From Kiritimatiellaceae bacterium (GTDB lineage Bacteria > Verrucomicrobiota > Kiritimatiellia > Kiritimatiellales > Tichowtungiaceae), in assembly GCA_013141415.1 (NCBI GenBank), contig JABFQY010000003.1, positions 271,729 through 335,728 of the forward strand: 64,000 bases of DNA, in the 5' to 3' direction. A model generated the notes under the pieces. It worked only from the letters and a program-made list of their open reading frames with translations, did no database searches and was not told the DNA's origin. A program made the position numbers and the translations under genes. Positions 7,532 through 62,298 of the stretch are shown piece by piece (within the stretch, counting starts at the first letter, position 1; every line of letters starts with the position of its first letter).

Positions 7532-7553
7532 GCCGCACTTGATTCCCCTCCCG

Positions 7554-8124: not shown

Positions 8125-8160
8125 AAATCACCCATTCCGCTGGCGTTTTTTGAAACGGAA
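8101..8160 (+). repeat. Island repeat copy B with terminator-like stem
   Basis: Second copy of the island repeat. GCCAGCG at its left pairs with CGCTGGC, which is followed by GTTTTTT, so this copy may also end transcription of the small ORFs. It shares CCTGCTAAAAA and GCGTTTTTT with copies A and C. Confidence 0.55.
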
Positions 8161-8212
8161 ATAAAGAAATAATAGACTGACACTGGGGACAGAAACGACA
8201 GGGGACTTTGAT

Positions 8213-8926
8213 ATGATAAACACACAAAAACGCCACGCAAAAAATATCCTGCGCCGAAACTCTTTAATCTGCTATGTACCTATTCACCAAAGGATGGAAC
8301 GATTAAACTACTCACGTTTAAGAGCAATCCGGGCAACGTGTTACGGATTCATTCTGCCCACCGCGCTTGTGCTTCTGGCTTTGCCCAGCGGCGCACAGCA
8401 ACCCGATGCGCGACAACTTGCCTACGATATAACCGCGTTTAACCGCATACCGCCCAACCCAGCGCCCCACGTATGCGAGCCGCCGGTACAATGGCCAGGC
8501 GTTGGACTTTGGACGCTAACCGACGGAGCGCGCGAGGAGTTGGAGACCATAGCGTTTTGCCTTTGGAATGAGGCGCACGAAGACGGCCGCCCCGCCATAG
8601 AGGCAGTAGCGAGCGTTATTCATAACCGCGCACGCTATGAGACATCGAGATACGTGGACATTATCGCAAGATCGGGCCAGTTTTCCGGGTACCGCGCGAC
8701 AGTGCCGGACGACTTCATACACCCCAACGTCCAGGCGCTCAGCTATTCCGGCGAGCTCCAAGCTTGGACAGATTGCCACTTGTACGCCGAGCGCATGATA
8801 CGGGGCGGATTCCAGCCGGCGAATAACTCAGACCATTTTTATAGTGGCCCGCCGCCGGCCTGGAGCAAAAACTTGACCAACGTACACACCAAAGGCCGAT
8901 TGACCTTTGGCCGAATGCAGAAATAA
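8213..8926 (+). CDS. SleB/CwlJ-type cell-wall hydrolase, exported
   Basis: 237 residues from this start, 210 if the ATG at 8294 is used. The second start gives a cleaner signal peptide (basic stretch, then CYGFILPTALVLLALPSGAQQ); GGGGAC eight bases ahead supports the first. The C-terminal domain matches the Hydrolase_2 (SleB) family: a catalytic-type Glu in LWNEAHEDGRPAIEAVASVI, then HNRA, then QFSGY and a final HFYSG. The enzyme should cleave glycan strands of peptidoglycan in the periplasm. It lies between two island repeats, which suggests it arrived as a cassette. Annotation of the domain is firmer than its role here. Confidence 0.8.
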   Translation: MINTQKRHAKNILRRNSLICYVPIHQRMERLNYSRLRAIRATCYGFILPTALVLLALPSGAQQPDARQLAYDITAFNRIPPNPAPHVCEPPVQWPGVGLWTLTDGAREELETIAFCLWNEAHEDGRPAIEAVASVIHNRARYETSRYVDIIARSGQFSGYRATVPDDFIHPNVQALSYSGELQAWTDCHLYAERMIRGGFQPANNSDHFYSGPPPAWSKNLTNVHTKGRLTFGRMQK

Positions 8927-8962
8927 ACCCGAACGCACCGCGCCCCCGCCACCTGCCCGCGA

Positions 8963-9014
8963 TCCTGCTAAAAACGGCCTGTCCCGCCGATGTTCGGCAA
9001 AATGAATGACAAAA
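8963..9014 (+). repeat. Island repeat copy C
   Basis: Third copy of the island repeat, the most divergent: CCTGCTAAAAAC is kept, then CCCGCCGATGTT in place of the GCGTTTTT end. It sits directly ahead of the DUF2971-like gene. Confidence 0.5.
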
Positions 9015-9027
9015 AAAGGATGAAAAA

Positions 9028-9903
9028 GTGAATTCCGACATACTTTATCACTACTGCTCAAATGAAGCGTTCCACTCGATAGTCAGCAACCACTCAATTC
9101 GCCTATCGTCCCTTCTGCTATCAAATGACTCCATGGAAGGCAGGCTGGTTTCCGGCTTAATCACCGAGCTGGCAAAAGAAAATGGTTTAGACCAAGCCAA
9201 GGCACAACGACTTCAAGAAAATATAATTCAGTTTGAAAGCATGTTTGACGGCCTCGGGTTTTGTTTTTCCGAAAAAGGAGATTTGTTAAGCCAGTGGCGA
9301 GGATATGCAGACGATGCCAGTGGCGTATCAATCGGGTTCTCTAAAAAATATCTAACTCGGCTGCCCGCTGCTTACAAAGATAAAAGGAAGGACGGGTTCT
9401 TTTTAGATCAAGTTACGTATGACCGCGAAACTCAAAAAAAACTCATAACCCCTATATTCAAAGAGATGATTGAGCGCATAAACCGCGGAGCCTTTAACAT
9501 CCCAAACCACGGTACGATTATATTTCCAAGATCGGCTGAGGATATTGCTCAAGAGGAAGGACAAATCGCACTGGCACTGGCTGACTTACATCTTAAAAGC
9601 CTAGATCTGTTCGGCGTAATCTTTTCATTTAAAACCTCTGCATTTTCCGAAGAGAGTGAGTGGCGATTGCTTTCTCATCTCTTCCATATAGGAAAAATAG
9701 ATACTGAGTGCGAATTCCGTGTGGTCAGAAAAAAGATCGTGCCATACCGTGAATTTCCTCTGCAAAAGTTAGAATTAAACGCGATCCATGATGTCTTTCT
9801 CGGCCCCAAAAATACGACTCCTGAAAACGTCGTCAGAGGGCTTCTTGAGTCTAATGGGTTTTCAGATGTCACAGTAAAACGATCTTCCGCTTCATACAAA
9901 TGA
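9028..9903 (+). CDS. DUF2971-like protein
   Basis: 291 residues. Family-like pattern: LYHYCSNEAFHSI near the N-terminus, IRLSSLLLSNDSMEG, then CFSEKGDLLSQWRGYADD and GVSIGFSKKYL around residues 80-110, and a central EWRLL segment. DUF2971 proteins are of unknown biochemical function and are frequent in mobile cassettes and defence-like islands. The gene is clearly AT-richer than nfo or the hydrogenase genes. A ribosome site AAAAAAGGATG lies upstream. It is the last gene of the island; no fourth repeat copy was found after it. Confidence 0.75.
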   Translation: MNSDILYHYCSNEAFHSIVSNHSIRLSSLLLSNDSMEGRLVSGLITELAKENGLDQAKAQRLQENIIQFESMFDGLGFCFSEKGDLLSQWRGYADDASGVSIGFSKKYLTRLPAAYKDKRKDGFFLDQVTYDRETQKKLITPIFKEMIERINRGAFNIPNHGTIIFPRSAEDIAQEEGQIALALADLHLKSLDLFGVIFSFKTSAFSEESEWRLLSHLFHIGKIDTECEFRVVRKKIVPYREFPLQKLELNAIHDVFLGPKNTTPENVVRGLLESNGFSDVTVKRSSASYK

Positions 9904-9954
9904 AGAACCGGAGTGAAAGGTACCGGTCCTATCTTTTAACCTTTGGTTGGGATT

Positions 9955-10653
9955 TTACTTCCGGAGCAATTTTTGAAACGCGGCGCGTAGCGCTGGAACG
10001 GTGAAGGCTTCGGTTTCGATTTCGGTGAACCGGCGGGCGATCTGATCCGGATAATGTGAATCAGAAAACCGGACAACGAACCAGCGGCGGGCGATTTCAG
10101 AATCAATTGCGCCGACGACTTCGACGGCGTCGTACGGTAAATCAGGAAGAAATCCCAAATGCGAAATAGCGCCGCACATTTCTCGATCGATATGAGATGG
10201 AATGCAGAGCGCACCGGCTTTTAGCGCCATCGGCACCAGATCGAAAAATGAAATGTCGGTTCCGGTGTTCAGGAGTTTTTCAGCGAAGCGCGTTACCGTT
10301 TCGTCAACCGTTACAACAGGCTGGTCGCCGAAAAGTTTTGAATCAGTAGGGATGTCAGGCAGATGACTGTAGATCATACGTCCAAAATCAAGCGCACGGT
10401 TCAGGTCGTCAAAGAGGCAGAGAACGTGAACTTCTTCGGATGTGGAGACTTCCAGTCCGTACAGACAGGCCATTCCGGCCTCGGCGCAGGCATCGTGAAA
10501 GGCGGGAAGATTTTCGGTACAGCCGTGGTCGGTGAGTGCGATGCAATCGATCCCGGCCGCTTGGGAACGTGCAACGATGGTGCGCGGCGACATTTCCAGC
10601 GCGGCGCACGGTGAGAGGCAGGAGTGAATGTGGAAATCAATACGTGACTTCAT
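9955..10653 (-). CDS. PHP-domain metal-dependent phosphoesterase
   Basis: 232 residues with PHP hallmarks: DFHIHSCLSPC at the N-terminus (His-x-His metal ligands), ALTDHG about residue 42, GLEVST and a late SDSHYPDQI. Likely a cytoplasmic phosphohydrolase, substrate unknown. It overlaps the rex stop by 4 bases (ATGA) and so is cotranscribed with rex. PHP genes next to rex and hydrogenase genes are known in Thermotoga- and Clostridium-type hydrogenase clusters, but no function in H-cluster assembly has been shown to my knowledge. Confidence 0.88.
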   Translation of the reverse strand: MKSRIDFHIHSCLSPCAALEMSPRTIVARSQAAGIDCIALTDHGCTENLPAFHDACAEAGMACLYGLEVSTSEEVHVLCLFDDLNRALDFGRMIYSHLPDIPTDSKLFGDQPVVTVDETVTRFAEKLLNTGTDISFFDLVPMALKAGALCIPSHIDREMCGAISHLGFLPDLPYDAVEVVGAIDSEIARRWFVVRFSDSHYPDQIARRFTEIETEAFTVPALRAAFQKLLRK

Positions 10654-11297
10654 TGGGATGCACCGGCGGAAGGTTCGGAACTTTCGGAAAAGTGTATCTG
10701 ATAAAAAATATTTTCAATTTCCTGTTCAACGTTGATGTTTTGAATAATGAAATTTTCCGAACTGCGCAGCGAGAGCGGCGCAAAATTGATAACACCTTTG
10801 ATGCAGGTTTTTTTCAACGAATCAATAATGGACTGCGCTGATGACTCGGGTACTGTCAGCGCGGCCACCTGAATATTTTTTTCGGCAATGAAATCTTTGA
10901 TCTTACTGATATGCAGAATCGGAATCGGCGCGGCTTCATCTAAAACGGATGGATCGCTGTCGAATCCGGCAGCAACGCGGATTCCAACCCTCGGAAACCC
11001 GTTATAGTTCATCAGTGCCCGACCCATTTTCCCGCAGCCGATAATAATAATTTTCTGTTTGCGGTCTTTGCCAAGAATGACGTTAAGCCGTCCGATCAGC
11101 TCTTCGATTTGATATCCGCCGCGCTTATTTCCGGTAAGGCCGAATACGGAAAAATCTTTGCGAACCAGTGAGGGCGAGACACCCACAGAATCGGCCAAGT
11201 TGTCGGAAAAGACCCGGACGAAGCCGAGACCTTTCATTTTTTGCATGACATCACGGTATTTCAGAATACGCTCAATGACTGCGGTTTGAGTTTTCAT
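10650..11297 (-). CDS. rex: Redox-sensing transcriptional repressor Rex
   Basis: 215 residues. The N-terminal winged helix (ERILKYRDVMQKMKGLGFVRVFSDNLADSVGVSPSLVRKDFS...FG; positions about 7-55) is followed by a Rossmann domain with IIIIGCGKMGRALMNY, which senses the NADH/NAD+ ratio. The start chosen has GGAG seven bases ahead; a longer in-frame ATG at 11450 would run through the AT-rich promoter region and is unlikely. Divergent from the second hydrogenase operon. Rex normally represses fermentation and hydrogenase genes until NADH rises, which fits this neighbourhood. Confidence 0.93.
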   Translation of the reverse strand: MKTQTAVIERILKYRDVMQKMKGLGFVRVFSDNLADSVGVSPSLVRKDFSVFGLTGNKRGGYQIEELIGRLNVILGKDRKQKIIIIGCGKMGRALMNYNGFPRVGIRVAAGFDSDPSVLDEAAPIPILHISKIKDFIAEKNIQVAALTVPESSAQSIIDSLKKTCIKGVINFAPLSLRSSENFIIQNINVEQEIENIFYQIHFSESSEPSAGASQ

Positions 11298-11313
11298 GAT
11301 CCATCTCCATGTT

Positions 11314-11331
11314 TTGTTATTTAATTCACAT
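11314..11331. promoter_or_regulatory. Probable Rex operator
   Basis: TTGTTATTTAATTCACAT matches the Rex consensus TTGTGA-N6-TCACAA at 10 of 12 fixed positions. It lies 17 bases ahead of the rex ATG, in the 167-base gap between rex and the hydrogenase operon. Autoregulation of rex is the simplest reading. Confidence 0.6.
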
Positions 11332-11386
11332 ATTTTTAGTATTCCATCAGTATTAATGTCAATATTATTATAGATATTGGCTATAA

Positions 11387-11404
11387 AATAACTTTTTATC
11401 ACAA
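11387..11404. promoter_or_regulatory. Possible second Rex half-site, hydrogenase side
   Basis: A perfect right half TCACAA (11399-11404) with a poor left half. It lies about 60 bases ahead of the hydC start, where a repressor of the hydrogenase operon would bind. Weak by itself. Confidence 0.3.
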
Positions 11405-11464
11405 AATTTAGTTGTACCCTTTTAATTAGTGAGTACCCTTTCGGCTTCAATTTTGGAGGAACAC

Positions 11465-11935
11465 ATGTCTGAGAACAAACTAACTGCTGAACTGATCAGC
11501 TTTATCAATGAGTGGAAAAACAAGCAGGGCAACCTGATTATGGTGCTGCACAAAGTGCAGGAGCATTTTGGTTATATCCCGCGTGAAATCGCTTTCGAAG
11601 TGGCCGATCTGCTGGACGTGCCTGTGGCAAAAATCTACGGCGTCGTCACATTCTATCATCTCTTCAAACTCACAAAGCCCGGTCGCAACCAAATCTCGGT
11701 CTGCATGGGCACAGCCTGCTATCTCAAGGGCGGCGAAGACATCATTCTCGATCTGGAACGTCAGCTCGGCGTCGGCCTCAATGCCGTTACGCCGGACGGT
11801 GAGTTCTCGATGGAAGCCGTCCGTTGTATCGGATGTTGCGGACTGGCTCCGGTCATGACGGTCAACGGTGAAGTCTTCGGCAGTGTAAAAACCGCGCAGC
11901 TCAAAACCATTCTGGCAAAATTTAGAGGAAAATAA
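11465..11935 (+). CDS. hydC: NuoE/HydC-type [2Fe-2S] subunit of hydrogenase, second copy
   Basis: 156 residues. Helical N-terminus, then the thioredoxin-like [2Fe-2S] domain with CMGTAC (about residues 80-85) and CIGCC (about 121-125). It is the diaphorase small subunit of the second trimeric hydrogenase. GGAGG five bases ahead of the ATG decides the start over an upstream in-frame ATG. Only two bases separate it from hydB. First gene of the rightward operon that includes the maturation genes. Confidence 0.94.
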   Translation: MSENKLTAELISFINEWKNKQGNLIMVLHKVQEHFGYIPREIAFEVADLLDVPVAKIYGVVTFYHLFKLTKPGRNQISVCMGTACYLKGGEDIILDLERQLGVGLNAVTPDGEFSMEAVRCIGCCGLAPVMTVNGEVFGSVKTAQLKTILAKFRGK

Positions 11936-11937
11936 TT

Positions 11938-13773
11938 ATGAAGTTTACACGCGATACTCTGAAATCTCACCGTAGTGGCCTCCATGCAGCCCAAGCCGGC
12001 ACAACGGTTCTGGTCGGCATGGGAACCTGCGGAATCGCCGCCGGCGCCAAAGCGGCTTTCCAGACACTGGAAAAAGCGATTGCGGATAAAAAACTGAAAA
12101 ACGTCGTTTTGAAGAAAACCGGCTGTCTCGGCCTTTGTTTTTCCGAACCGACCGTGGAAGTAAAAAATGCGAACGGCTCTTCAACTGTTTATGGCAATGT
12201 GGACGCCGCATTGGCGGAACGCATAGCCGTCGAACATCTGGCGGGCGGCAAGCCGCTGACTGAAAATGTTTACGAGCAGCCCGCCGCCGATATCTTCAAC
12301 CAAAGTGCTTCCCCGTTAAAACAAACCCGCATCGTCCTGCGCAACTGCGCCGTCATCAATCCGGAGATCATTGACGAATATATTGCCCGCGACGGCTACG
12401 CCGCGCTCGAAAAAGCCTTGTTTGACATGACTCCCGATGATGTCGTGAAAGAGATCACCGACTCCGGCCTGCGCGGGCGCGGCGGTGCCGGTTTCCCGAC
12501 CGGCCGCAAATGGCAGTTCACCAAAAACACCCCGGCCGATCAGAAATATATCGTCTGTAACGCCGATGAAGGCGATCCCGGTGCCTACATGGATCGCAGT
12601 GTCCTGGAAGGCGACCCCCACTCCGTCCTCGAGGCGATGGCCATCGCCGGATACACCGTCGGTGCGAGCAAAGGATTCATTTACATTCGCGCGGAATATC
12701 CGCTGGCGATCGAACGGCTGAACACCGCCATCGCTCAAGCCAAGCAATGCGGACTGCTCGGAGAAAAAATTCTCGGCACTGAATTTTCGTTCGACATCGA
12801 ACTGCGCCTCGGCGCGGGCGCATTTGTCTGCGGCGAAGAAACCGCTCTGCTGACTTCAATTGAAGGCAACCGCGGCATGCCGGTACCGCGCCCTCCCTTC
12901 CCGGCCGTCAAAGGCCTGTGGGGTAAACCGACCGTCATCAACAACGTTGAAACCTACGCCGCCATTCCGATTGTTCTGCTCAAGGGCAGCAAATGGTTCA
13001 GCCGCATCGGCACGGAAACATCCAAGGGAACCAAGGTTTTTGCGGTGACCGGAAAAATTAAAAATTCCGGCCTCATTGAAGTGCCGATGGGAACAACCTT
13101 GCGCGAAATCATCTATAACATCTGCGGCGGCATTGCCAGCGGCAGACAGTTTAAAGCCGCGCAAACCGGCGGCCCGTCCGGCGGCTGTATCACCCCCGAG
13201 TTCCTCGACACCCCGATCGACTACGAGAGCCTGCAAGCTATCGGCTCCATGATGGGCTCCGGCGGGATGATCATCATGGACGAAGACGATTGCATGATCG
13301 ACGTCACCAAATTCTATCTGGAATTTACGGTGGATGAATCCTGCGGCAAATGCGCCCCGTGCCGCATCGGCGGGCGTACCTGCTACAACATCCTCGACCG
13401 GATCAGCAAAGGTAAAGGTCAATTAGACGATCTCCAGAAACTGAAAGATATCGGCCATGCCATGCGCAAGGCATCGCTCTGCGGACTTGGCCAGACTGCG
13501 CCCAATCCGTTCATGTCGACCATGAAATATTTCGAAGAGGAATACCGTGCGCATATCGTCGATAAGAAGTGTGCGGCGGGCAAATGTAAAGAGATGCTCA
13601 CCTACAGCATTGACGCAGAAAAATGTGTCGGCTGTACCGCCTGCGCGCGGCGCTGCCCGGTTTCCTGCATCGCCGGTGAAGTGAAAAAACTTCATGTCAT
13701 CGACCAATCGAAGTGTATCAAGTGCGGCCAGTGCTTCACCGCCTGCAAATTTGATGCCGTCAAAAAAGGATAA
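11938..13773 (+). CDS. hydB: NuoF/HydB-type NADH-binding diaphorase subunit, second copy
   Basis: 611 residues, standard HydB layout: thioredoxin-like [2Fe-2S] region (GTCGIAAG, GCLGLC; about 1-100), NuoF core with the FMN site LRGRGGAGFPTGRKW and NADH-site segment CGEETALLTSIEGNRG, [4Fe-4S] site ESCGKCAPC then SLCGLGQTAPNP, and a C-terminal two-cluster ferredoxin domain CVGCTACARRC and CIKCGQCFTAC. Compared with the first copy, the GltD module is absent and the ferredoxin is kept. Such HydABC enzymes can use NADH and reduced ferredoxin together (electron confurcation); which mode applies here is not shown by sequence alone. Confidence 0.95.
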   Translation: MKFTRDTLKSHRSGLHAAQAGTTVLVGMGTCGIAAGAKAAFQTLEKAIADKKLKNVVLKKTGCLGLCFSEPTVEVKNANGSSTVYGNVDAALAERIAVEHLAGGKPLTENVYEQPAADIFNQSASPLKQTRIVLRNCAVINPEIIDEYIARDGYAALEKALFDMTPDDVVKEITDSGLRGRGGAGFPTGRKWQFTKNTPADQKYIVCNADEGDPGAYMDRSVLEGDPHSVLEAMAIAGYTVGASKGFIYIRAEYPLAIERLNTAIAQAKQCGLLGEKILGTEFSFDIELRLGAGAFVCGEETALLTSIEGNRGMPVPRPPFPAVKGLWGKPTVINNVETYAAIPIVLLKGSKWFSRIGTETSKGTKVFAVTGKIKNSGLIEVPMGTTLREIIYNICGGIASGRQFKAAQTGGPSGGCITPEFLDTPIDYESLQAIGSMMGSGGMIIMDEDDCMIDVTKFYLEFTVDESCGKCAPCRIGGRTCYNILDRISKGKGQLDDLQKLKDIGHAMRKASLCGLGQTAPNPFMSTMKYFEEEYRAHIVDKKCAAGKCKEMLTYSIDAEKCVGCTACARRCPVSCIAGEVKKLHVIDQSKCIKCGQCFTACKFDAVKKG

Positions 13774-13786
13774 TTTGGAGAAACCC

Positions 13787-15535
13787 ATGAATATGATTGA
13801 ACTCGAAATCAACGGAATTCCGGTATCGGTAAAACCAGGCACATCTTTAATCGACGCAGCCAAACTGGTCGGCGTAAAAATCCCGACGCTCTGTTACCAC
13901 AGCGACCTCGAACCGTGGGCTGCCTGCGGTATCTGCGTGGTCAAGGTGGAAGGCTCACCAAAAATGCTGCGCGCCTGCGCCACACCGGCAGGCCCCGGCA
14001 TGAAGGTGATCACCCACGACCCGGAAATCGTCAATGTACGCCGCACGGTACTTGAACTGATTCTGTCAACCCATCCCAACGACTGCCTCCAGTGCAGCCG
14101 TAACCGCAACTGCGAGCTGCAGACTCTGACGGAAGAATTCGGCATCCGCGAAGTGCCGTTTGAAAAGCGGTTGCGCGACCTGCCGGTTGACAACTCCACC
14201 ACCTCTATCGTACTCAATCCGGAAAAATGTATTTCCTGCGGACGGTGCGCGAAGGTTTGCCAAAATATGCAGGGGGTTTGGGCTCTTGAGTTCATCGGAC
14301 GCGGCGAAAACACCCGAATCGCTCCTGCGGCGGATGTCACGCTCGACGAAAGTCCCTGCATCAAATGCGGCCAGTGCTCCGCGCACTGCCCGGTTGGTGC
14401 CATCTATGAAAAAGACCAGACCCGCGAGGTCTGGAATGCCATTGAAGAGAACAAAAAGCATTGTGTTGTGCAAATTGCTCCGGCTGTGCGCGTCGCCATC
14501 GGCGAAGCCTTCGGCTATGAGCCCGGAGAAGTACTCACCGGTCAACTTTACACCGCGCTGCGCCGTCTCGGTTTCAATGCCGTGTTCGACACCAACTTCA
14601 CCGCCGACCTCACCATCATGGAAGAGGGTTCAGAATTCGTCCGGCGCGTAACCGAAGGTGGTGTCCTGCCGCAGATCACCTCGTGCTGTCCGGCATGGAC
14701 CGACTACATGGAAAAATTCGCTCCAGACTTCATCCCGAACTTTTCATCGGCCAAGTCGCCGCAGCAGATGCTTGGTGCCGTTGCCAAGACCTACTACGCC
14801 GAAAAGGCCGGCATTGATCCGAAAGATATGTACGTCGTTTCCGTCATGCCCTGCACAGCGAAAAAGTTCGAAGTTTCGCGTTGCGAAACGATGACTTCAT
14901 CCGGCTTTCAGGATGTGGATGTATCCATCACGACCCGCGAGCTGGCTCACATGATCAAACAGGCCGGCATCGACTTCAAAAACCTGCCGGAAGAGGAACC
15001 GGACAGCTTGCTCGCCGAGTACTCCGGCGCTGGCACCATCTTTGGCGTCACTGGCGGCGTCATGGAAGCCGCTCTGCGCAGCGCCTATTTCCTCATCACC
15101 AAAGAAGACCTCAAGGACGTTCACTTCATGGATGTCCGCGGCCTCGAAGGTGTGAAAGCCGCCACGGTGGACATCAAAGGCACTAAAGTTCGCGTTGCAG
15201 TCGCCCATCAGATGGGCAACGTCGAAGCAGTGCTCAACCAGATCCGCGCGGCGAAGGAAAAAGGCGAAGAACTGCCCTACCACTTTATTGAGGTAATGGC
15301 CTGTCGCGGCGGTTGTATCGGCGGCGGCGGACAGCCCCACGGCGCAACCGACGAGATCCGCAAGAAGCGGATTGCCGGGATTTACACCGATGACGAAAAG
15401 AGCGTCCAGCGGTGCTCCCACCGCAACCCGATGATCACAAAAATTTACGAAGATTTCTTGGGTAAACCGTTGGGGCACAAGGCTCACGAACTATTGCACA
15501 CCGGGTACCAAGAACGAAAAGTGTACAAGAAGTAA
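13787..15535 (+). CDS. hydA: [FeFe]-hydrogenase catalytic subunit, second copy
   Basis: 582 residues. N-terminal [2Fe-2S] domain (CYHSDLEPWAACGIC), His-Cys3 site (HPNDCLQC with a further Cys), two [4Fe-4S] motifs (CISCGRCAKVC, CIKCGQCSAHC), then all three H-cluster motifs: TSCCPAW, MPCTAKKFE and EVMACRGGCIGGGGQP. The C-terminus carries the small-subunit-like tail (YEDFLGKPLGHKAHELLH). The start chosen has GGAG six bases ahead; the open frame upstream overlaps hydB and lacks a ribosome site. This complete, canonical copy makes a direct comparison with the variant first copy possible. Confidence 0.97.
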   Translation: MNMIELEINGIPVSVKPGTSLIDAAKLVGVKIPTLCYHSDLEPWAACGICVVKVEGSPKMLRACATPAGPGMKVITHDPEIVNVRRTVLELILSTHPNDCLQCSRNRNCELQTLTEEFGIREVPFEKRLRDLPVDNSTTSIVLNPEKCISCGRCAKVCQNMQGVWALEFIGRGENTRIAPAADVTLDESPCIKCGQCSAHCPVGAIYEKDQTREVWNAIEENKKHCVVQIAPAVRVAIGEAFGYEPGEVLTGQLYTALRRLGFNAVFDTNFTADLTIMEEGSEFVRRVTEGGVLPQITSCCPAWTDYMEKFAPDFIPNFSSAKSPQQMLGAVAKTYYAEKAGIDPKDMYVVSVMPCTAKKFEVSRCETMTSSGFQDVDVSITTRELAHMIKQAGIDFKNLPEEEPDSLLAEYSGAGTIFGVTGGVMEAALRSAYFLITKEDLKDVHFMDVRGLEGVKAATVDIKGTKVRVAVAHQMGNVEAVLNQIRAAKEKGEELPYHFIEVMACRGGCIGGGGQPHGATDEIRKKRIAGIYTDDEKSVQRCSHRNPMITKIYEDFLGKPLGHKAHELLHTGYQERKVYKK

Positions 15536-15640
15536 AACTTGGTGTACTTTTTCGGGGTTTTCTGCGGCAAGGGGCCCGTCCCTGACCCAAGGCAAATGGA
15601 CAATTTAGGAAAACGGTTTGCATAGCTGCCTACCGTCTCC

Positions 15641-15677
15641 TGCTCCGCCGCAGAGATGCGGCGGAGCACTTTTTTTG
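15641..15677 (+). terminator. Intrinsic terminator between hydA and the maturation genes
   Basis: TGCTCCGCCGCA, loop GAGA, TGCGGCGGAGCA, then C and seven Ts: a perfect 12-bp GC-rich stem with a U-tract. The ribosome site of the next gene (TTGGAG) begins within the tail. Transcripts should end here in part, so the maturation genes depend on read-through or another promoter. Confidence 0.8.
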
Positions 15678-15688
15678 GAGAAATAGCT

Positions 15689-15940
15689 ATGCAGACGAGA
15701 CTCGGATTCATCGGAATCATTATCGAAGACCGTGAAGCCAACGCGACAGCGGTCAACGAACTGTTGGGACAGTTCGGCGAACTGATCGTTGCCCGGATGG
15801 GTGTTCCCTACGAAAAACGCTCCTGTTCCGCCATCACGCTCATCGTCGACGCCACCACCGACGAACTCGGCGTTCTCACCGGAAAACTCGGAGCCCTGTC
15901 CGGCGTCTCCGTCAAATCCATGCTGAGCAAATCGAAATGA
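15689..15940 (+). CDS. TM1266-type putative iron-only hydrogenase system regulator
   Basis: 83 residues resembling the small ACT/NikR-C-like family found next to [FeFe]-hydrogenase genes (TM1266 in Thermotoga). Pattern: RLGFIGIIIEDREA at the N-terminus, GELIVARMGVPYEKR in the middle and SAITLIVDATTDELGVLTGKLG. The family is annotated as a regulator, but its ligand and mode of action are not established. The start follows GGAG. Its stop overlaps the aspA start by 4 bases, so it heads the maturation operon. Confidence 0.85.
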   Translation: MQTRLGFIGIIIEDREANATAVNELLGQFGELIVARMGVPYEKRSCSAITLIVDATTDELGVLTGKLGALSGVSVKSMLSKSK

Positions 15941-17256
15941 AAAACCGGATCGAAACAGATTTACTTGGATCAAAGGAAATCCCGGCAGACGCCGCATGGG
16001 GAATCCACACCGCCCGGGCACTGGAAAATTTTCCGATCCCCGGACATTCCGTTAACCCGCGTCTGCTCAAAGCGTATGCTCAGGTCAAAAAGGCCTGCGC
16101 TCTCACCAATAAGGAACTCGGTTTTCTCTCTAAAGAAAAAGCAGACCGCATTATCGAAGCCTGTTCCCTGACTCCTGACTCCTGTCCCCTGTCTGCCCTT
16201 CAGGGCGGCGCCGGGACTTCAACCAACATGATGGTCAACGAAGTGATCAGCCATCTCGCCGGAGCGCATCCGATTGAAGAGGTCAACCTGCACCAGTCCA
16301 CGAACGACACCTACCCGACGGCACTGAAAGTTGCCGCCATCGGAGCCGTTCGTGAACTCAGCGAAGCGTTCGCCGCGCTTCAGGGTGCTTTCCAGACTCT
16401 AGAAAAAACGTGGGCCAACCTCCCGATTCTCGGAAAAACCGAGCTGATGGATGCCGTTCCACTGACACTCGGCGCACAGTTCGCCTCGTTCGCCGAAGCC
16501 TTCGCGCGTGACCGCTGGCGTACATTCAAGTGCGAAGAGCGTCTGCGCACCGTCACCCTTGGCGGCACGGCAATCGGTACCGGAATTACAGCGCCGCGCA
16601 GCTATATTTTCCTCGTCATCGAAAAACTGCGCGAAGTGACCGGCCTCGGCCTCAGCCGCGCCGAAAATATGGTCGAAGCCACCGCCAACGCCGACTGCTT
16701 CGTCGAAGTATCCGGCATCCTCAATGCCGCCGCTATCAATTTGATCAAAGTCAGCGATGATCTGCGGCGGCTCGCGATGCTCGGCGAAATTAAACTGCCC
16801 GCCGTGCAAGCCGGTTCGTCCATCATGCCGGGCAAAGTAAATCCGGTTATTCTGGAGTCGGTCATCCAAATCGGCATCAAAGTGAAAGCGAACAACAACA
16901 TCGTTGCCGACTGCGCCGCGCGCGGTTCTCTCCAGATCTGCGAGTTCATGCCGTTGCTGGCCGACGCCCTGCTCGAATCGATCGACCTGCTGATCGCCGC
17001 CGCGCGAATGCTGGCGAAACATGTCCCCGGAATTGACGCGGATCAAGGTAAATGTCTGGAACGCCTGTATGCTTCTCCCGAAATCATCACTGCGTTTGTT
17101 CCGATGCTTGGATATGACCGCTGTTCAGAGCTGTTCAAGCAGTTCGAACGGCACGGTAACGGAACCATTCGCGAGTTTTTGGAGAAGGAACTAGGCAAAG
17201 AGACGGTTGAAAAGACGCTCTCGCCGCAGAATTTGATGGCTATGGGTTATAAATGA
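15937..17256 (+). CDS. aspA: Aspartate ammonia-lyase within the hydrogenase maturation operon
   Basis: 439 residues, slightly short for the family. It converts aspartate to fumarate and ammonia. Fumarase/aspartase signatures are present: GGAGTSTNMMVNEVI, HQSTNDTYPTA, and the catalytic loop GSSIMPGKVNPV. It overlaps the regulator upstream and hydF downstream by 4 bases each, so it is locked into the maturation operon. Other [FeFe] clusters also carry an ammonia-lyase next to hydF; a role in supplying ammonia for the dithiomethylamine bridge of the H-cluster is plausible but inferred. Odd: residues about 78-89 are coded by a low-complexity tract of repeated CTGACTC and CCTGT that replaces a longer family segment. 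Confidence 0.92.
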   Translation: MKNRIETDLLGSKEIPADAAWGIHTARALENFPIPGHSVNPRLLKAYAQVKKACALTNKELGFLSKEKADRIIEACSLTPDSCPLSALQGGAGTSTNMMVNEVISHLAGAHPIEEVNLHQSTNDTYPTALKVAAIGAVRELSEAFAALQGAFQTLEKTWANLPILGKTELMDAVPLTLGAQFASFAEAFARDRWRTFKCEERLRTVTLGGTAIGTGITAPRSYIFLVIEKLREVTGLGLSRAENMVEATANADCFVEVSGILNAAAINLIKVSDDLRRLAMLGEIKLPAVQAGSSIMPGKVNPVILESVIQIGIKVKANNNIVADCAARGSLQICEFMPLLADALLESIDLLIAAARMLAKHVPGIDADQGKCLERLYASPEIITAFVPMLGYDRCSELFKQFERHGNGTIREFLEKELGKETVEKTLSPQNLMAMGYK

Positions 17257-49095: not shown

Positions 49096-49143
49096 TGGTA
49101 CCCCGGACAGGATTCGAACCTGTGACCGTCGGATTAGAAATCT
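49096..49143 (-). pseudogene. 3' half of tRNA-Arg(TCT): attachment-site copy of the integrated element
   Basis: Read on the minus strand it gives the anticodon loop TTTCTAA (anticodon TCT), the 3' anticodon stem TCCGA, a variable loop, the T-arm ACAGG-TTCGAAT-CCTGT, the acceptor 3' strand CCGGGGT, discriminator A and CCA. Upstream of the anticodon loop only GA of the 5' stem is left, and the sequence then departs from any tRNA. A tRNA broken at the anticodon stem is the classic crossover of tyrosine integrases. The intact tRNA should lie at the other end of the element, beyond 64 kb. Confidence 0.85.
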
Positions 49144-49354
49144 ATTTTTTAGCATTCAGCCGGTGACTTTTTGTTTCAGTAAGTCTCTGACTATCAGCAA
49201 GCTATAAAAAATAACTTGATTTGTCAAGGCCATTGAAATGGTATGAAAAACGGTGCTTTTTGATGGGTGAAAGCCACACTTTTCGCCACACTTTTCAGAG
49301 TGTTTCAGCGCCGATTTTTTGGTGTCTGCTTCCCTAAATGAGCAGATGGATGAG

Positions 49355-55775: not shown

Positions 55776-56531
55776 TCATATTCTGGTCAAGTTTCTGCCG
55801 AAGTAATACTCCAAACATCCAGCTATGCTAAGCCTGTTGAAAAGCAACGTGTCTATAGCTCCACCGTTGATGGTTGGTTCATGTTCATGGTAGAAACAGA
55901 GTGATGGCGTTAGTGGGAGGATCATGCGTTTCAGTGATGAATCTGGGACAATGAAATCGACACTCGATGAAGTCATGAGGTGCCATTTCGTGCCCTTGAA
56001 TTGTCGTAAAGATCGATTCAGCTTCGTCTGCAAAAGTCCCCCCACAATCTGGCGAGCGGGGATCGTGAAATCTGGCCTAATCGATGAAATGTTGTTCTTC
56101 TCCAGATGCTCGATATCGTCCTTCGAAAGCTTCACTGAAACATCAACAATTCCTGGAATCGGCCCCTCATCAATATCAGCATCACGAAGTGACTCCCGAA
56201 GAGACCAGAGACAATACATAGCAGACACTATCTTGGCGCCTTCTGCTGACACTGTCGTATCTCCAGAACTGAGGAGCTGATCTGCGTATCCACGATAGTC
56301 ATTCTCAATAGTGAGCATGTAGCCGCTCTCTGCCCGCTGGTCCCAAGCTCTCTTAGCACAAAAAATTGGTGCGTCTGGCTTAGCGCGAAAAGTACCTTCC
56401 GAAGATTTGCACTTAACCTCGACGGTGCCATTAGAATCGGAGAAGCGTGCTATGCAGCACTTAGGGAAGCAGTGTTGCTTTACGGTAAGTTGATGTGGAT
56501 TACCTGGCTGGGGCTTCTCGAAGGTTGACAT
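55776..56531 (-). CDS. Third gene of the Pycsar-like operon, unknown function
   Basis: 251 residues from MSTFEKPQPG, chosen because GGAGAGC lies ahead; a longer frame overlaps the cyclase. NPHQLTVKQHCFPKCCIARFSD near the N-terminus faintly recalls the start of DUF4238 proteins, with Cys and His that could bind metal. The middle is helical (GAKIVSAMYCLWSLRESLRD) and the C-terminus holds PLTPSLCFYHEHEPTINGG. Fourteen bases after the cyclase, so cotranscribed. Pycsar loci usually have two genes; this one may be an accessory or a passenger. Confidence 0.6.
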   Translation of the reverse strand: MSTFEKPQPGNPHQLTVKQHCFPKCCIARFSDSNGTVEVKCKSSEGTFRAKPDAPIFCAKRAWDQRAESGYMLTIENDYRGYADQLLSSGDTTVSAEGAKIVSAMYCLWSLRESLRDADIDEGPIPGIVDVSVKLSKDDIEHLEKNNISSIRPDFTIPARQIVGGLLQTKLNRSLRQFKGTKWHLMTSSSVDFIVPDSSLKRMILPLTPSLCFYHEHEPTINGGAIDTLLFNRLSIAGCLEYYFGRNLTRI

Positions 56532-56545
56532 TGTTGGGTGCTCTC

Positions 56546-57241
56546 CTATAAAGACCATTTCCAATTCGACCTGTAGATCTTCATGTTGTTCATGTCGGTC
56601 CACTGTGCCTCCTCCCACATGGAGACGCCGTTGTGCTTCTTCGCGTCATCTACGAGTCTGTTGTAAACATCCGCAGTAATGCGGGATGCGTGTGTGTCTG
56701 GTAGTGAAGAAAGCTTTGCCGCATAGTTCGCCGCGCGGCCAACCCATACCAAGTCATTCGCGCCTCGTGCGCCGGTACGCGCGGCGCGCAACGTGCTTCG
56801 GTCGATGCCCACGACATGTTTCAGTTGGTACTCTTTAGAGGGGTACTGCTTTAGGAGTAGAGGATTAATGATCTCCAATCGGCACCAGTTGATCTTTAGG
56901 GCGGTTCTAGCAGCTGAAGTGTTCGGCGAGTCGCCTATGTACACAGCCATGATGCGATCCCCGTCATAGGCCGTTATGCGGCCTCCTTCACTTGAGATGA
57001 TCCTTGCGGCGCAGTAGAGAAACGCTTTGTATACTTCAGCAGCGAACTGCCATGATTCAGCGTTCACCAAGGCTGTCGAACCAGACATGTCTGCGTAAAG
57101 GACAACCGCATCTTCAAGTTTCACGGCTTCATTCGCCATGGCAACTGTGTCGGCATCTGGAACAACCCGACCATCGCGCTCAGTCCATTGTTCTCTGAAG
57201 AACTTCCCAACTTGCTCAACCAGTTCATCTTTCAGTGACAT
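56546..57241 (-). CDS. Class III nucleotide cyclase, Pycsar cyclase-like (PycC)
   Basis: 231 residues, a stand-alone class III cyclase domain. The first metal Asp is in VVLYADMSGSTALV (about residues 45-58), the second in YDGDRIMAVYIG (about 90-100); RTGARGANDLVWVGRAANYAAKL (about 155-178) holds the transition-state Asn/Arg region. Small size, absence of sensor domains and a cNMP-binding TIR effector directly upstream match the Pycsar anti-phage system, where such enzymes make cUMP or cCMP on infection. The base used cannot be told from sequence by eye. Seven bases after the effector gene. Confidence 0.82.
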   Translation of the reverse strand: MSLKDELVEQVGKFFREQWTERDGRVVPDADTVAMANEAVKLEDAVVLYADMSGSTALVNAESWQFAAEVYKAFLYCAARIISSEGGRITAYDGDRIMAVYIGDSPNTSAARTALKINWCRLEIINPLLLKQYPSKEYQLKHVVGIDRSTLRAARTGARGANDLVWVGRAANYAAKLSSLPDTHASRITADVYNRLVDDAKKHNGVSMWEEAQWTDMNNMKIYRSNWKWSL

Positions 57242-57248
57242 AGAAAAC

Positions 57249-58163
57249 CTACCTGCTTTTCATCTTCTGAATCGCGAGTGATATCTCGTCCGCTGACGTT
57301 CTGACGGCGTCTTGGGGTGAGGCTGCGGTTGGGTCGTATTTTACTACGTTGATTCCGAGAAGATCGGATGGAATCTTCACATCAATCCCCTGGGGTGTAA
57401 TGAGGAATGTTCTGTGTCGGGTAATTGCGCCCATGAACAGTCCGAGTTCAAAAACAATATTGTCCCTTGGTGCCTGTGTGGATACGCCTCGACTCGTCAC
57501 TTGGTCGTCTGCTGTGGCAACCAATGCTGCAAAGTCCGAGCATTGCACTCGTGTGGCCAAGTCTTCCATTGGAAAGTGCGAAGCACCGAATACGCCCTCG
57601 GACCACAAACTCACAACTGCCAGCTTGGGGTCAATTCGTGAGGCAAGAGCCTTGGCAATGGCGATCCCCTCGCGGGATGATCCAATGAATAGTTGAGGTG
57701 TCTCGTTGGGTGAACTGTGGAACTTGCATCGTTCGTCCAATCGTCGTACAAGCTGGATGCCAATCTGGCGCCAGAGGATTGGATGCGCGTTGGCGATGGC
57801 AACGAAGTTGGGTTCGCAAACTTGTGCGTATGTCGTTGGCTCACGGGACACCACCGTTGCTGTCCGACGTGATGCGGGGTCAACTAGGGCCATTTCGCCG
57901 ACATGTTGTCCGGCTCCTCGGGTAGCGACTTCTCTTTCATTGATGAGAATGCGGGCGCTACCACTGAACATGAAGTAGATATCGTTGTCAGAGTCGCCCT
58001 GCCGAATCAATACATCGCCAGCCGAATGACTAACGATTTTGCATGCGGGTGCCAGTGCTTGTGCGACCGGTTCGCTTCCTCGAACGAGCTGCTGTTGCAG
58101 AAGCAGATCAATCAGAATCCGTCCAGTTGTATCGGCTGCGATTCTGTCGCCTATTGATGTCAT
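57249..58163 (-). CDS. cNMP-binding/TIR-like effector, PycTIR-like
   Basis: 304 residues. Residues about 20-150 are a cyclic-nucleotide-binding domain: DVLIRQGDSDNDIYFMFSGSARI and the phosphate-binding cassette VGEMALVDPASRRTATV. Residues about 165-300 are a TIR-like predicted nucleotide-binding domain (PQLFIGSSREGIAIAKALASRI, DNIVFELGLFMGAITRHRTFLI) of the kind seen in Cap12 effectors, where a Glu cleaves NAD+; VFELGLF holds the likely catalytic Glu. Expected action: bind the cyclic pyrimidine made by the cyclase, then deplete NAD+ and stop infection. First gene of the operon. Confidence 0.83.
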   Translation of the reverse strand: MTSIGDRIAADTTGRILIDLLLQQQLVRGSEPVAQALAPACKIVSHSAGDVLIRQGDSDNDIYFMFSGSARILINEREVATRGAGQHVGEMALVDPASRRTATVVSREPTTYAQVCEPNFVAIANAHPILWRQIGIQLVRRLDERCKFHSSPNETPQLFIGSSREGIAIAKALASRIDPKLAVVSLWSEGVFGASHFPMEDLATRVQCSDFAALVATADDQVTSRGVSTQAPRDNIVFELGLFMGAITRHRTFLITPQGIDVKIPSDLLGINVVKYDPTAASPQDAVRTSADEISLAIQKMKSR

Positions 58164-58365: not shown

Positions 58366-59643
58366 TTAGCTATTTATGCTACGGGATCGTTTCGCAAAGG
58401 GAGCGAAGCGGTGTTTATGCGCAAGCGGAATCATTGAGCCGCAGGATTCGGTTTCCCAGCGGCGGTGGTTAGCGAGCGCGAGCGCCATGACGCAATCATC
58501 GTGAAAGCCTGACGGGGCGTTGTAGCTGACGTGCCCGCGCGGGGAAATTTCGTATTCGTAGCGTTGCATTTCGTTGGTGAGCACCTGCCATTCCTCCGGC
58601 CAGCTGACTTTCTGGTGTTCGACGGCCCCCATGAGGCGCTGTACCAGTTCGGCTTTCGAGATGGATGAGAATTTGAAGGGCTCAATGTTTGAATAGCGTC
58701 GGCAAAGGTCGTCGTAAATTGGATCCCCTGCCCCGGTGGCATCGAGGATCAAGCGGCCTTGCCATTTGCGCGCGAATTGCAGGATGCGGTCTTTCTGCAC
58801 CGGCCAGTTGAGCTGATTGAAGCGTTCCATTTCAAAGCAGCGGCCCGTTTTCAGGTTCATGGCAACGAGCACGGTGAAGTCGGTATGCTTGGCCACATCG
58901 CAACCGATGACCACCGGCCCGGTGCGGTCGTCGCGGGTGATTGTCTTTTCAGGAAACAGGCACGAGCTGACACCGCGAAATACTCCCGCAGAGTCTTCAA
59001 GAAACTCGGCTTCGTATTCCTGCTTGAACACATCGGCGGGCAAGGTGCGCTTAGCGTCGTCCCATTCGGTCGGCGGAAAATACGGGCTGGCATTGCTGGG
59101 GAACTTGAATGACTTGTAGGCTGTTTCTTGCGGATCGAGTCCGCGGGTGTACAGGTCAAAAAACCAGTTGCGGCCTTTGGGTGTCGAAATGAATACGGCC
59201 CAGCCTTCCGTCTGCGCGATGGTCGGCCTCAAAACGTAATTCCATACATCGAGTGGGATCACCGCCGCTTCATCTACTACAAGACCTTTGAAGCCGTACC
59301 CACGGATGTTCTCGGGATTGTCGGCAGACAAAAACCAGACACGGGAAATTTTTCCGTCCCGGCTCTCGAAATCAACCCGCGAAGGCGTCCGCCCGATAAA
59401 GCGCAGGTACCACGATTCTGCGGCGGCGATAAACGCCTCCCGCCCGCGCTCCGCCACGTTGTAGGTGGGCGCTACCCATCCGTATTCGCCGGAGTCGAGG
59501 AAGGCGCACTCGAGCAACTCTCCGGCAAGGCAGAGGGTCTTTCCGAATCGTCGTCCGGTGCAGACAATTCGAAATCGCTTATCGCGGGCATTATGAATTT
59601 CTTTTTGAGCCCAATGGGGGGTGTATTTGACAGGAGACGCCAT
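58366..59643 (-). CDS. terL: Terminase large subunit
   Basis: 425 residues. ATPase part with Walker A CTGRRFGKT and Walker B GLVVDEAA, coupling motif FISTPKG; nuclease part with VVIGCDVAKHTDFTVLV, the Asp in LILDATGAGDPI and a late HDDCVMALALA. Packages DNA into the head. Overlaps the small-terminase gene by 172 bases, a long overlap for phage genes. Its C-terminal 20 residues are basic and probably dispensable. Confidence 0.93.
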   Translation of the reverse strand: MASPVKYTPHWAQKEIHNARDKRFRIVCTGRRFGKTLCLAGELLECAFLDSGEYGWVAPTYNVAERGREAFIAAAESWYLRFIGRTPSRVDFESRDGKISRVWFLSADNPENIRGYGFKGLVVDEAAVIPLDVWNYVLRPTIAQTEGWAVFISTPKGRNWFFDLYTRGLDPQETAYKSFKFPSNASPYFPPTEWDDAKRTLPADVFKQEYEAEFLEDSAGVFRGVSSCLFPEKTITRDDRTGPVVIGCDVAKHTDFTVLVAMNLKTGRCFEMERFNQLNWPVQKDRILQFARKWQGRLILDATGAGDPIYDDLCRRYSNIEPFKFSSISKAELVQRLMGAVEHQKVSWPEEWQVLTNEMQRYEYEISPRGHVSYNAPSGFHDDCVMALALANHRRWETESCGSMIPLAHKHRFAPFAKRSRSINS

Positions 59644-59885
59644 TCTATAACTCCTTCGTGTTCGATGTTGACCGTGGCTTCTTTGGGAAGCATCGGCATG
59701 ATGATGTTGCGAAAAAACGAAACGGGGTCTTTTGTTAAGGATTCTTGCAGGCCATCCAGCAAAGCTTGCTGATTGGCATCGGACTGCAACATAAGGTCAA
59801 TGGCCTTAACGAGCTGAGTGCGTCCGCTGACTGCGCCTTTGGGCTTGCCGGCTGGGTTGCCTGATTGTCCTGGTTTAAATTGCAT
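59472..59885 (-). CDS. DUF5681-type protein, probable small terminase
   Basis: 137 residues from MQFKPGQSGNPAGKPKGA, the signature of DUF5681 proteins that stand just ahead of terL in many phages and probably recognise packaging sites. The N-terminal half fits the family; the C-terminal third lies over terL in another frame and is low complexity (ESCSSAPSSTPANTDG). TTGGAGG ahead of the ATG and recurrent motif e just upstream support this start. Confidence 0.75.
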   Translation of the reverse strand: MQFKPGQSGNPAGKPKGAVSGRTQLVKAIDLMLQSDANQQALLDGLQESLTKDPVSFFRNIIMPMLPKEATVNIEHEGVIEWRLLSNTPPIGLKKKFIMPAISDFELSAPDDDSERPSALPESCSSAPSSTPANTDG

Positions 59886-59897
59886 CGTGTCCTCCAA

Positions 59898-59920
59898 CCT
59901 AAGGAGGGAAATCAAACTAT
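59898..59920 (-). promoter_or_regulatory. Recurrent upstream motif, copy e
   Basis: Minus strand: TAGTTTGATTTCCCTCCTTA then GG, about 12 bases ahead of the small-terminase ATG. Heads the head-gene operon. Confidence 0.7.
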
Positions 59921-61552
59921 GACTGTTTCAGGATGTTTCAAATTCCCTGTAAATATCAGGAAAATACAGGAGGGGCCCCACACACACGTTGGTTTACAGG
60001 CGGACGGGTACCGAAGTAGCCATACTCGAAGACATCTTTTCCTCCGAGGCTCCGATGGGCCGAGGAGTTGCAGAGCATTCGTGAAAAAGGTGAAGCCTTG
60101 GTTTCCGATGGCTGGAATACCCTGCCCCGCAGGGGAGCGTAGCGACGACGCAACAGCGGCGGAATTTTTCCGAAGGCGGCGGCAAGGGACGCGGGAATGA
60201 TGAAGGATGAAAGATGAACTATGAAAGTGGATGGACGATTCACCGTGTGCGTTGAAGAAGATTCGCCGGCGAGGAAAGGCTGTTGCGGGTGAACGGAAGA
60301 GCTGGGCCCAGAGAAAACCCTTGGACGGTATGCCGGACTCGGGTTTTCGTCGGGCTCGGCTCTGGAGTGAATCACCCCACAACAGAGATTGGCTGAAACG
60401 CGGGGCTGGCGCGATTTCTGCCGCGACGAAGGAGCCAGCACGAAACCGTGACAGCTTTGGGGAAAAGGGGTGAGGCCGGAGGCCGAAGGGGGAAGCGGGG
60501 CGAAGCGGGGCTTCCCCCTGGGAAAGGAGTGAGGCTTTTGCACAGCAAACGCCGAGAGGAAAACCCGTCCGGAGGATGGGTTTGCTTCTTCGGTTGAGCG
60601 GGACAAGTGAAACCGTTGAGGCCATCGAGGCCCGCCGCCGTGCGAGGGCGCGAGCCGGTGCGGGCGGAGCCCTGCGAAGACGGAACGGCTGAACACAGCC
60701 GGACGGATGAGCGCGAGGCGGCCCAGACAGAACTGGTTCTGTTGAGTGAACGGGTTGAAGCAAAGCGCCAACGTGCATCGCGCACGCATAATTGATCAAT
60801 TATGCGATGTTGGCCGGTCCGCTGTATTCAGCGGTTGCGAAACCCTGCGCGTGGCCGCCGAGTTACTATCGGGGAGCAAGCCGGTGAATTCCGTTATCGC
60901 GGAACTGAACCGGTTTGCGATGACCCCTACCACCCCACGGAGTGTTGCCTGCAACAGCAGGCAGCCCGAGGGAGTCCGCCCCGAAACATGATGGGGCGCG
61001 TATTCGTGACCCATGATGTTCGGGATCAAGCGGACTGCCGAGGTAGGAGGCCCGTTCCGGCGCTGAAGCGGACACCCAAGGGCCGAGGGCGTTGCGAAGC
61101 AACGTAGGAGGCTCGCAGGGTGGAACGATGAAGAGCCGGTTCGGGCCGCACAACTACATCCCCCAAAGGGCCGCAGCCGGTTGCGAAGCAACCGTAGGCG
61201 GTCTGCATGGGGGCTTGGGGGATAAATACCACCCGCGCCGAAAAGGATTTGTGAAGCATGTTTGAAACGCCTTCACGGGAAACAACTCCGAAGGACAACA
61301 GACAAAAACCGTGAAGCGGTTCAAGCTGCGGAACAATTCCTTTTGCGCGGTTACATCCCCCCATTTGGGGGGCTTGGGGGGCGAGTGCAATGAAGTGGAT
61401 TTTGGAGACGGGCTGAATGAGGTACGAGTGAAGCCCGGTGACAAAAGACACTTGATTGCGCGAGACCATAGAGAGAAGTCGGAAAGCAGAATGATCAATA
61501 ACCAATGAACAGTGACAAACTTACAAGGGGTGAAAAAATGATAGAGAAAAAT
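59921..61552. ncRNA. Long non-coding, hairpin-rich region; candidate structured RNA
   Basis: About 1.6 kb without a convincing gene, although several frames stay open because the DNA is GC-rich. It is full of strong stems: GGGGGAAGC with GCTTCCCCC near 60500, GTTGCGAAGCAAC twice (about 61094 and 61182) each followed by GTAGG(A/C)GG, and a 22-bp perfect palindrome at 60785-60806. A unit with GTAGGAGG also follows a stem near 61042. Long ornate RNAs (GOLLD, ROOL) are known from prophages and are a possible analogy; I cannot match it to one. The transcribed strand is not clear. Confidence 0.4.
60785..60806. repeat. 22-bp perfect palindrome
   Basis: CGCATAATTGA followed by its exact reverse complement; AT-rich within a GC-rich region. 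CCAA and CATC on the left pair with GATG and TTGG on the right, extending the stem with bulges. It could be an operator, a replication or recombination site, or the tip of an RNA helix. Confidence 0.7.
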
Positions 61553-62008
61553 CTACTCGTTGGAAAGACGGCGGCGGCGCCTGGCAACTTTTTCAGGGAA
61601 CAATGTCCGCAAAATCGGACACTTCCTCAAAGCAAGCTTGTGCCGCATCTCTGCCAACTGAGACGAAGTCCCCTGCCGATCAGCAATCTCTTTGTACGAC
61701 AGGCCCTGAAACCGCCAGGCGACGATGTCGCGCTGTTCAGGGGGAAGGCGCAACAGGCTGTCAAAAAAACTCACCAAGGAGCCATAAACCAACTGTTCTG
61801 CCACTGTATCAGGCATGGCCGGGGAATCGCCGAGCGCACGCACCGGATTGCCCAAGGCAGAAGCGGGAGGGTTTTCCTCGTCCAGAGGAACAGAATAAAA
61901 CGTATCCTCGCCCAGCTTGCAACCGGAACAAGGAATCTCGTTCCAAGGTTTGGTATCGTACTCGCCACGCTTAACGGCATCGTGATGAGGACAGGAATGG
62001 CATTTCAT
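61553..62008 (-). CDS. Zinc-ribbon plus sigma-region-4-like regulator
   Basis: 151 residues from MKCHSCPHHDAVKRG. N-terminal cysteines CHSC and CSGC (about 20 residues apart) suggest a zinc ribbon; the C-terminal part reads LRLPPEQRDIVAWRFQGLSYKEIADRQGTSSQLAEMRHKLAL, a helix-turn-helix like sigma-70 region 4, ending in a basic tail (RRRRRL). No region 2 is present, so it is not a full sigma factor. A phage-encoded regulator of late genes is the likely role; the recurrent motif is a candidate target. Confidence 0.65.
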   Translation of the reverse strand: MKCHSCPHHDAVKRGEYDTKPWNEIPCSGCKLGEDTFYSVPLDEENPPASALGNPVRALGDSPAMPDTVAEQLVYGSLVSFFDSLLRLPPEQRDIVAWRFQGLSYKEIADRQGTSSQLAEMRHKLALRKCPILRTLFPEKVARRRRRLSNE

Positions 62009-62298
62009 GAATGGACTCCGGTTAAAGAGTGGCAAGGTGAGGACAGAGGACGGAGGACAGCAGACCGCAAGAAGTGGTTCCAAGGATCAGGAACGTAGTG
62101 ACAGATGACAGGAAACAATTTGAAACCGTCACCGATGAGAAGCCTGCAAATAAAGGGCGATACCGCTTATGACACTTCTTATAGTATATATAAATAATAT
62201 ATATAAGAGAGAGCGGAGCCGCGCACAGCCACATCCATAATACCGTATGGTGACGGGAAAATACTTTTTTAAGTGCAGTGTCACGCGTCAGTCTGTCA
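62009..62298. other. Gap with a strongly AT-rich tract
   Basis: No gene seen. About 62176-62208 is nearly all A and T with alternating TATATA, a possible promoter or unwinding site between helicase and regulator genes. Confidence 0.4.

Follow-up and report, generated by a model that had tools for sequence, protein, structure and literature searches.

The gap between the terminase genes and a sigma-70 region 4 gene in a prophage of a Kiritimatiellaceae bacterium encodes a conserved structured RNA, which lies on the plus strand, antisense to both of its neighbors. This conclusion is strongly supported, and the large structured RNA that a preliminary description of this DNA had proposed is upheld by covariation, by strand-specific noncanonical motifs, and by a fixed place in 17 near-complete homologues. 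As to what the RNA is, we consider the chances about even that it is a giant noncoding RNA of Kiritimatiellota phages and prophages, of a family absent from Rfam, that is made late, acts in trans, and perhaps associates with itself. The stretch of DNA analyzed (the window; 64 kb, G000:C3:271729-335728) comes from a genome of 2.2 Mb and is filled from ~49 kb on by a minus-strand prophage, in which the gene order on the minus strand is primase (DUF5906), sigma-70 region 4 gene, the gap, terS (DUF5681), terL, a Pycsar cassette, Mu-like portal, protease, and major head protein. The features of the locus, in window coordinates, are as follows.

58366 to 59643, minus strand: terL, terminase large subunit (Terminase_6N/6C; Pfam E values of 4e-12 and 8e-7)
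59472 to 59885, minus strand: terS-like gene (DUF5681) that opens the late operon, with its ATG at ~59885 behind GGAGG
59916 to 60115, unstranded: divergent control region that separates terS from the RNA body, seen in an alignment of upstream regions
59925 to 59940, minus strand: TGAAAC-N4-TGAAAC direct repeat oriented toward terS, matched exactly nowhere else in the 64 kb (0.01 matches expected)
60116 to 61478, plus strand: conserved structured RNA body of ~1.36 kb with approximate ends, from blastn block limits in homologues, the z-score scan, and folds
60195 to 60240, unstranded: interspersed ATGAAAGATGAAAG-type repeat, inserted into a variable part of the RNA and common at many places in related genomes
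60399 to 60500, plus strand: 5' core, with the long hairpin GGGGCTGGCGCGGTTT...AAACCGTGACAGCTTTGGGG and GGGGTGAGGCCGAAGGCCGAGGGG, the most conserved block (alignment A3, n = 17; model R2, 104.5 bits)
60782 to 60801, plus strand: GCATAA-N-TTATGC hairpin, its apex variable in many homologues
60974 to 61035, plus strand: central helix GTCCGC..ACATGATG / CATGATGT..GCGGAC with a UGA/UGA G.G motif (alignment A4)
61380 to 61470, plus strand: 3' hairpin domain with an apical GGAATGAGGTACGAATG-type loop (alignment A2, model R1)
61553 to 62083, minus strand: gene whose product contains Cys pairs and, at its C terminus, a sigma-70 region 4 (Pfam Sigma70_r4_2, E value of 1.8e-9)

The gap, 59916-61552, is bounded by terS and the sigma-70 region 4 gene, both on the minus strand. 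tblastn against the homologues revealed no conserved open reading frame (ORF) between the start of terS (~59885) and the end of the sigma-70 region 4 gene (61553), so that the gap is indeed gene free, as first described; its left edge had been drawn slightly generously, since 59916-60115 is the divergent control region and not part of the RNA body. Long spurious ORFs do cross the gap (for example, 59956-60789 on the minus strand), and in the homologues these show stops and frame changes, with a protein identity of ~35 to 60% over long stretches that falls well short of the DNA identity of 76 to 87%. A protein-coding gene in the gap was rejected because the ORFs are not kept in frame across homologues. 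The DUF5681 match of the terS-like gene (E value of 6e-8) was scored on a longer, TTG-start ORF (59472-59915), and the identity of the terS-like protein in relatives is ~50 to 66%. The sigma-70 region 4 gene is a conserved neighbor in most homologous loci, and terS and terL, the Mu-like portal and protease, and the major head protein nearby give the RNA its phage setting. A tRNA scan of the window and 18 loci found no tRNA.

Several other observations were made in and around the prophage. A Pycsar anti-phage system is carried as cargo between terL and the portal gene at window positions 55776-58163 (PycC, 56546-57241; PycTIR, 57249-58163); the PycC and PycTIR genes are also adjacent in L033, and other cargo lies there in L035 (7542-9129). 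Because relatives carry Pycsar genes or other cargo at this place, the terL-portal interval is a cargo hotspot. On its left the prophage probably ends at ~49097-49146, where the 3' half of a tRNA lies (by eye, probably tRNA-Arg, TCT); the 17 kb to the right of the window (L205) showed no second half to match it. Just beyond the prophage, L205 encodes at 7621-16984, as judged by eye, a DndA-like cysteine desulfurase and three large DptFGH-like genes; DptFGH is a phosphorothioation-dependent defense.

When 250-nt windows were slid along the sequence, strong folding was seen only at ~60125-61550, with z-scores reaching -7.4 on the plus strand and values near 0 in neighboring genes. Long-range folds gave z = -14.0 on the plus strand versus -6.0 on the minus strand for 60650-61560 and -8.7 versus -4.7 for 60000-60980, and full-length folds gave -10.4 in the window, -14.3 in L033, and -11.3 in L113. 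Hairpin density exceeds chance, in agreement with the preliminary description. Tandem GA/GA internal loops, whose stability is confined to one RNA strand, as written, occur 9 times in the window RNA, 8 times in L033, and 11 times in L113, against ~1 in shuffles (maximum, 4) and 0 on the opposite strand, and a G.G mismatch in a UGA/UGA context recurs in independent helices of every homologue folded. Because both the GA/GA loops and the folding z-scores favor the plus over the minus strand, we place the RNA on the plus strand.

Homologues in a place and orientation like the window's were collected by blastn against relatives and terminase-bearing viral contigs; 17 are near complete, the window counted, and 5 are fragments, and their carriers are related phages and prophages of Kiritimatiellota and viral contigs. 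Because aligning all regions together left too many gaps, the three subfamilies were aligned separately: A (the window, L033, L034, L158, and fragments of G013), B (L035 and L113-L117), and C (L123-L128, L130, and L135). L123 and L117 also have named versions in the database, L136 and L137, respectively, and it is the type strain Pontiella sulfatireligans F21 that carries L136. The complete, single-contig genome G009 (3.9 Mb) holds four copies of the RNA, one in each of four prophages. In every locus that includes its surroundings, the RNA is placed between terS and the sigma-70 region 4 gene on the opposite strand; L126 and L127 have no recognizable terminase within the stretch examined.

The distribution of the RNA is narrow. 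The nearest genomes with it belong to one genus and one other family in the same order as the source, and Kiritimatiellota are the source of the terminase relatives, among them those of Pontiella sulfatireligans F21 and Pontiellaceae bacterium B12227. Across 193 genomes of the class and 388 of the phylum, covariance model R1, built on the 3' hairpin, found only hosts of this phage lineage, plus one borderline match (27 bits, E value of 0.009). A DNA search of 50,697 phage records (isolated phage genomes) gave no match to the RNA, and the terL relatives among isolated phage genomes all have <60% identity. Pattern searches of viral contigs with GGAATGAGGTACGARTG and CCGTGACMGCTWTGGGG gave mostly chance matches: loci of ordinary unrelated phage DNA (L131, L133, and L134) or with ≤19 nt in common (L196-L198, L200, L201, and L203). 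No description of the RNA was found in the literature searched.

The RNA is laid out as a conserved 5' core, a variable middle, and a conserved 3' hairpin domain that is often duplicated. For the 3' hairpin, 96.2% of the cells in an alignment of 15 sequences from all three subfamilies are standard pairs, falling to 34 to 45% when the register is slid; two-sided change is seen at 13 of the 20 pairs, and the covariation score was reached by none of 500 shuffles. The covariation among homologues that had been suggested as a check on the RNA is therefore present. Outside its training set, R1 found second tandem copies of the hairpin, at 78.9 bits in L114 and more weakly, at 29 to 48 bits, in C-subfamily loci, and we conclude from these copies that the 3' domain is tandemly duplicated in several members. 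The central helix, kept in subfamilies A and B, has 26 predicted pairs, 4 of them with two-sided change (A4, 8 sequences). Across 17 sequences the 5' core hardly varies and therefore shows little covariation; RNAalifold was uninformative on the block for this reason. The apices of the GCATAA hairpin are palindromic in some homologues only, and we do not claim them as a kissing loop. Certain motifs are repeated within one RNA, namely the UGA/UGA G.G loops and GAGGUACGA apices. The repeated stem of the preliminary description, GTTGCGAAGCAAC, does exist in exact copies at 61091-61103 and 61180-61192 (~0.14 expected in the window; two matches in 2 of 100 shuffles); copy 1 aligns in two relatives as GGTTGCGTAGCAACC and copy 2 lies in a window-only stretch, making the repeat a minor, incidental feature. 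The RNA also contains two ACATCCCCC...GGGGGCTTGGGGG hairpin modules, at 61157-61222 and 61354-61380, similar ones of which recur in homologues; their CCCCCAAGCCCCC arm occurs nowhere else in the 64 kb.

The control region holds GGGGCCCCACAC at ~59974, common to the window and the C subfamily. Opposite the repeat that faces terS, an inverted TGAAAC-N4-TGAAAC copy faces the RNA and is exact in many relatives; this RNA-side element has 2 mismatches in L158, and none was found within 2 mismatches in L034 or in the window, where the copy is degenerate. The whole 3.9 Mb of G009 contains 8 exact sites, which make up four inverted pairs, one per prophage, and 0 sites for the control pattern. That the elements are paired, two per prophage, suggests a late RNA divergently coexpressed with the packaging genes. 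The spacing of the inverted repeats ranges from ~90 to 390 bp, and such variability is easier to reconcile with promoters than with a packaging site of rigid layout. No sigma-70 promoter and no convincing terminator were found at the RNA ends. Separately, several late genes have a leader element right ahead of their start codons: GTTTGATTT, after which comes a short hairpin or a TTTAGG-type stretch, or sometimes directly the start codon. The element was seen in the window at 59917, 54257, 53713, and 49776 (all on the minus strand) and also in L033, L113, L116, L135, and L158, and may serve translation or expression throughout these phages.

From this arrangement we infer that the TGAAAC repeats would serve as divergent late promoter or activator sites for the packaging operon and the RNA, and the sigma-70 region 4 protein encoded next door is a candidate, probably the one, for the regulator that reads them, that is, the proposed late activator. 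The RNA would then be made late in infection along with the packaging and head genes and, by analogy with GOLLD and ROOL, might act in trans in the form of a folded particle, perhaps one that associates with itself, instead of serving as an mRNA leader or antisense RNA. It is possible, though we hold this only tentatively, that a giant RNA coregulated with the terminase operon through the direct repeat either self-assembles or serves packaging late in infection.

The main rival explanation, which we consider unlikely, is a packaging role, in which the terminase would make use of the RNA, or of the DNA flanked by the inverted repeats, and TGAAAC would be TerS-binding sites; phi29 pRNA and lambda cosB are precedents for such a role. 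In the window's lineage the position beside terS-terL never varies, two inverted copies of the repeat element adjoin terS, and structured noncoding gaps at terS are also found in more distant terminase relatives, all of which this explanation would account for, but the spacing of the inverted repeats varies, a 1.4-kb RNA with 5' and 3' domains is far larger than a binding site, and the GA/GA motifs and covariation point to action as RNA, not as DNA. It is quite unlikely that the RNA acts in cis, either as a long late transcript that silences the sigma-primase operon or as a structured leader or attenuator: silencing needs neither conserved tertiary-type motifs nor duplicated domains, the conserved structure stops short of the sigma gene, and there is no downstream gene on the RNA strand to lead, although the RNA is convergent with the sigma-70 region 4 and DUF5906 primase genes and a divergent control element is present.

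Identical motifs repeated in one RNA, together with a TGAAAC repeat near both the terS leader and the RNA 5' region, could also indicate a decoy that titrates a regulator binding UGAAAC or the UGA/UGA motif, much as CsrB titrates CsrA; large, unique, conserved domains would be superfluous in such a sponge, and we regard this as very unlikely. We give almost no credence to the view that there is no RNA here and that the region consists of chance GC-rich repeats, hairpin-rich DNA, or a decayed gene. Interspersed host-type repeats and the long spurious ORFs across the region are what it has in its favor, and it is contradicted by the covariation, the strand-specific motifs, and the conserved place in 17 homologues, and by ORFs that are not conserved.

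More distant terminase relatives, from other phyla, also have structured noncoding DNA at this place and may widen the picture. Long noncoding gaps before terS are found in relatives of 57 to 68% identity (L147, L148, L155, L157, L159, L160, and L161), and those scanned (L147, L160, and L161) fold strongly. GC-rich, structured, apparently noncoding gaps of 2 to 4 kb upstream of terS were noted in L147, L148, and L157, in L155 and L160, and in L161 (Verrucomicrobiota and other relatives). For L147 and L148, the terS strand folds better, an apparent orientation opposite to that of the window RNA, and one-sided (G-U type) changes in four chunks number 18, 16, 8, and 8 on the terS strand versus 11, 5, 4, and 5 on the other. 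R1 found nothing convincing in terL relatives of 47 to 68% identity, and R2 gave weak matches of up to 23 bits in distant terL relatives. There may be a superfamily of terminase-linked giant RNAs that includes more distant relatives in other phyla, a doubtful extension of the coregulated-RNA reading. In L160, the stretch just downstream of terL (7548-7713) matches a group II intron domain (RF02001) at 89.5 bits.

The ribosome, RNase P, and introns aside, very few RNAs of comparable size and complexity have been described. The new family, which comprises no fewer than three diverged subfamilies, keeps a fixed place beside the terminase, and has a common control element, provides a fresh target for structure determination and a specific hypothesis on expression time and partner genes, which the covariance model and alignments make directly testable. 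Rfam 15, applied at the gathering threshold to the whole window and also at E ≤ 5 to the RNA region, gave no plausible match in the region or in the homologue loci; the matches that did appear, to PyrR205, sR2, and HOTTIP_3, are implausible. The GOLLD, ROOL, and HEARO models named in the preliminary description were thus without a match even at lax thresholds: GOLLD stayed below the gathering threshold, with no match at E ≤ 5 in the region and none in homologues, and ROOL did not reach the gathering threshold in the window, region, or homologues. Neither OLE nor the catalytic core of a group I or II intron or other ribozyme was matched, the latter in the window or the RNA homologues.

Like the HEARO/OMEGA RNAs, this RNA is structured and carried on mobile DNA; those RNAs go with an ORF for an IscB-type nuclease, and the Pfam-identified neighbors here are terminase, sigma-70 region 4, and primase, with no IscB-like nuclease. 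OLE is likewise a large, ornate bacterial RNA and is not known as a phage RNA. The phi29 pRNA, which works with the gp16 ATPase, is a phage RNA tied to packaging genes, as this one is, but it is 174 nt long and has no Rfam match to this RNA. GOLLD and ROOL each form RNA-only cages, expression of GOLLD rises in phage lysis, and OLE RNA is dimeric (PMC12286853). GOLLD resembles this RNA in being a large, ornate noncoding RNA of phages and prophages with one less conserved part and a conserved 3' region; unlike it, many GOLLD members are >800 nt, compared with ~1.4 kb here, with no match in sequence or structure, and GOLLD often lies near or contains tRNAs, whereas this RNA has none nearby, sits beside terS on the opposite strand, and belongs to another host clade. 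ROOL, also a large, ornate phage or prophage RNA with a variable part (its variable linker), is ~0.6 kb and often near tRNA islands, whereas this RNA lacks tRNAs nearby. The likeness to GOLLD and ROOL first drawn for this region does not extend to membership in their Rfam families or to a tRNA-island setting, but it holds in size, ornateness, and prophage setting; beside these two RNA-only nanocages of unknown function, this RNA is a third phage family, and by analogy with them it may form a compact, multidomain RNA particle.
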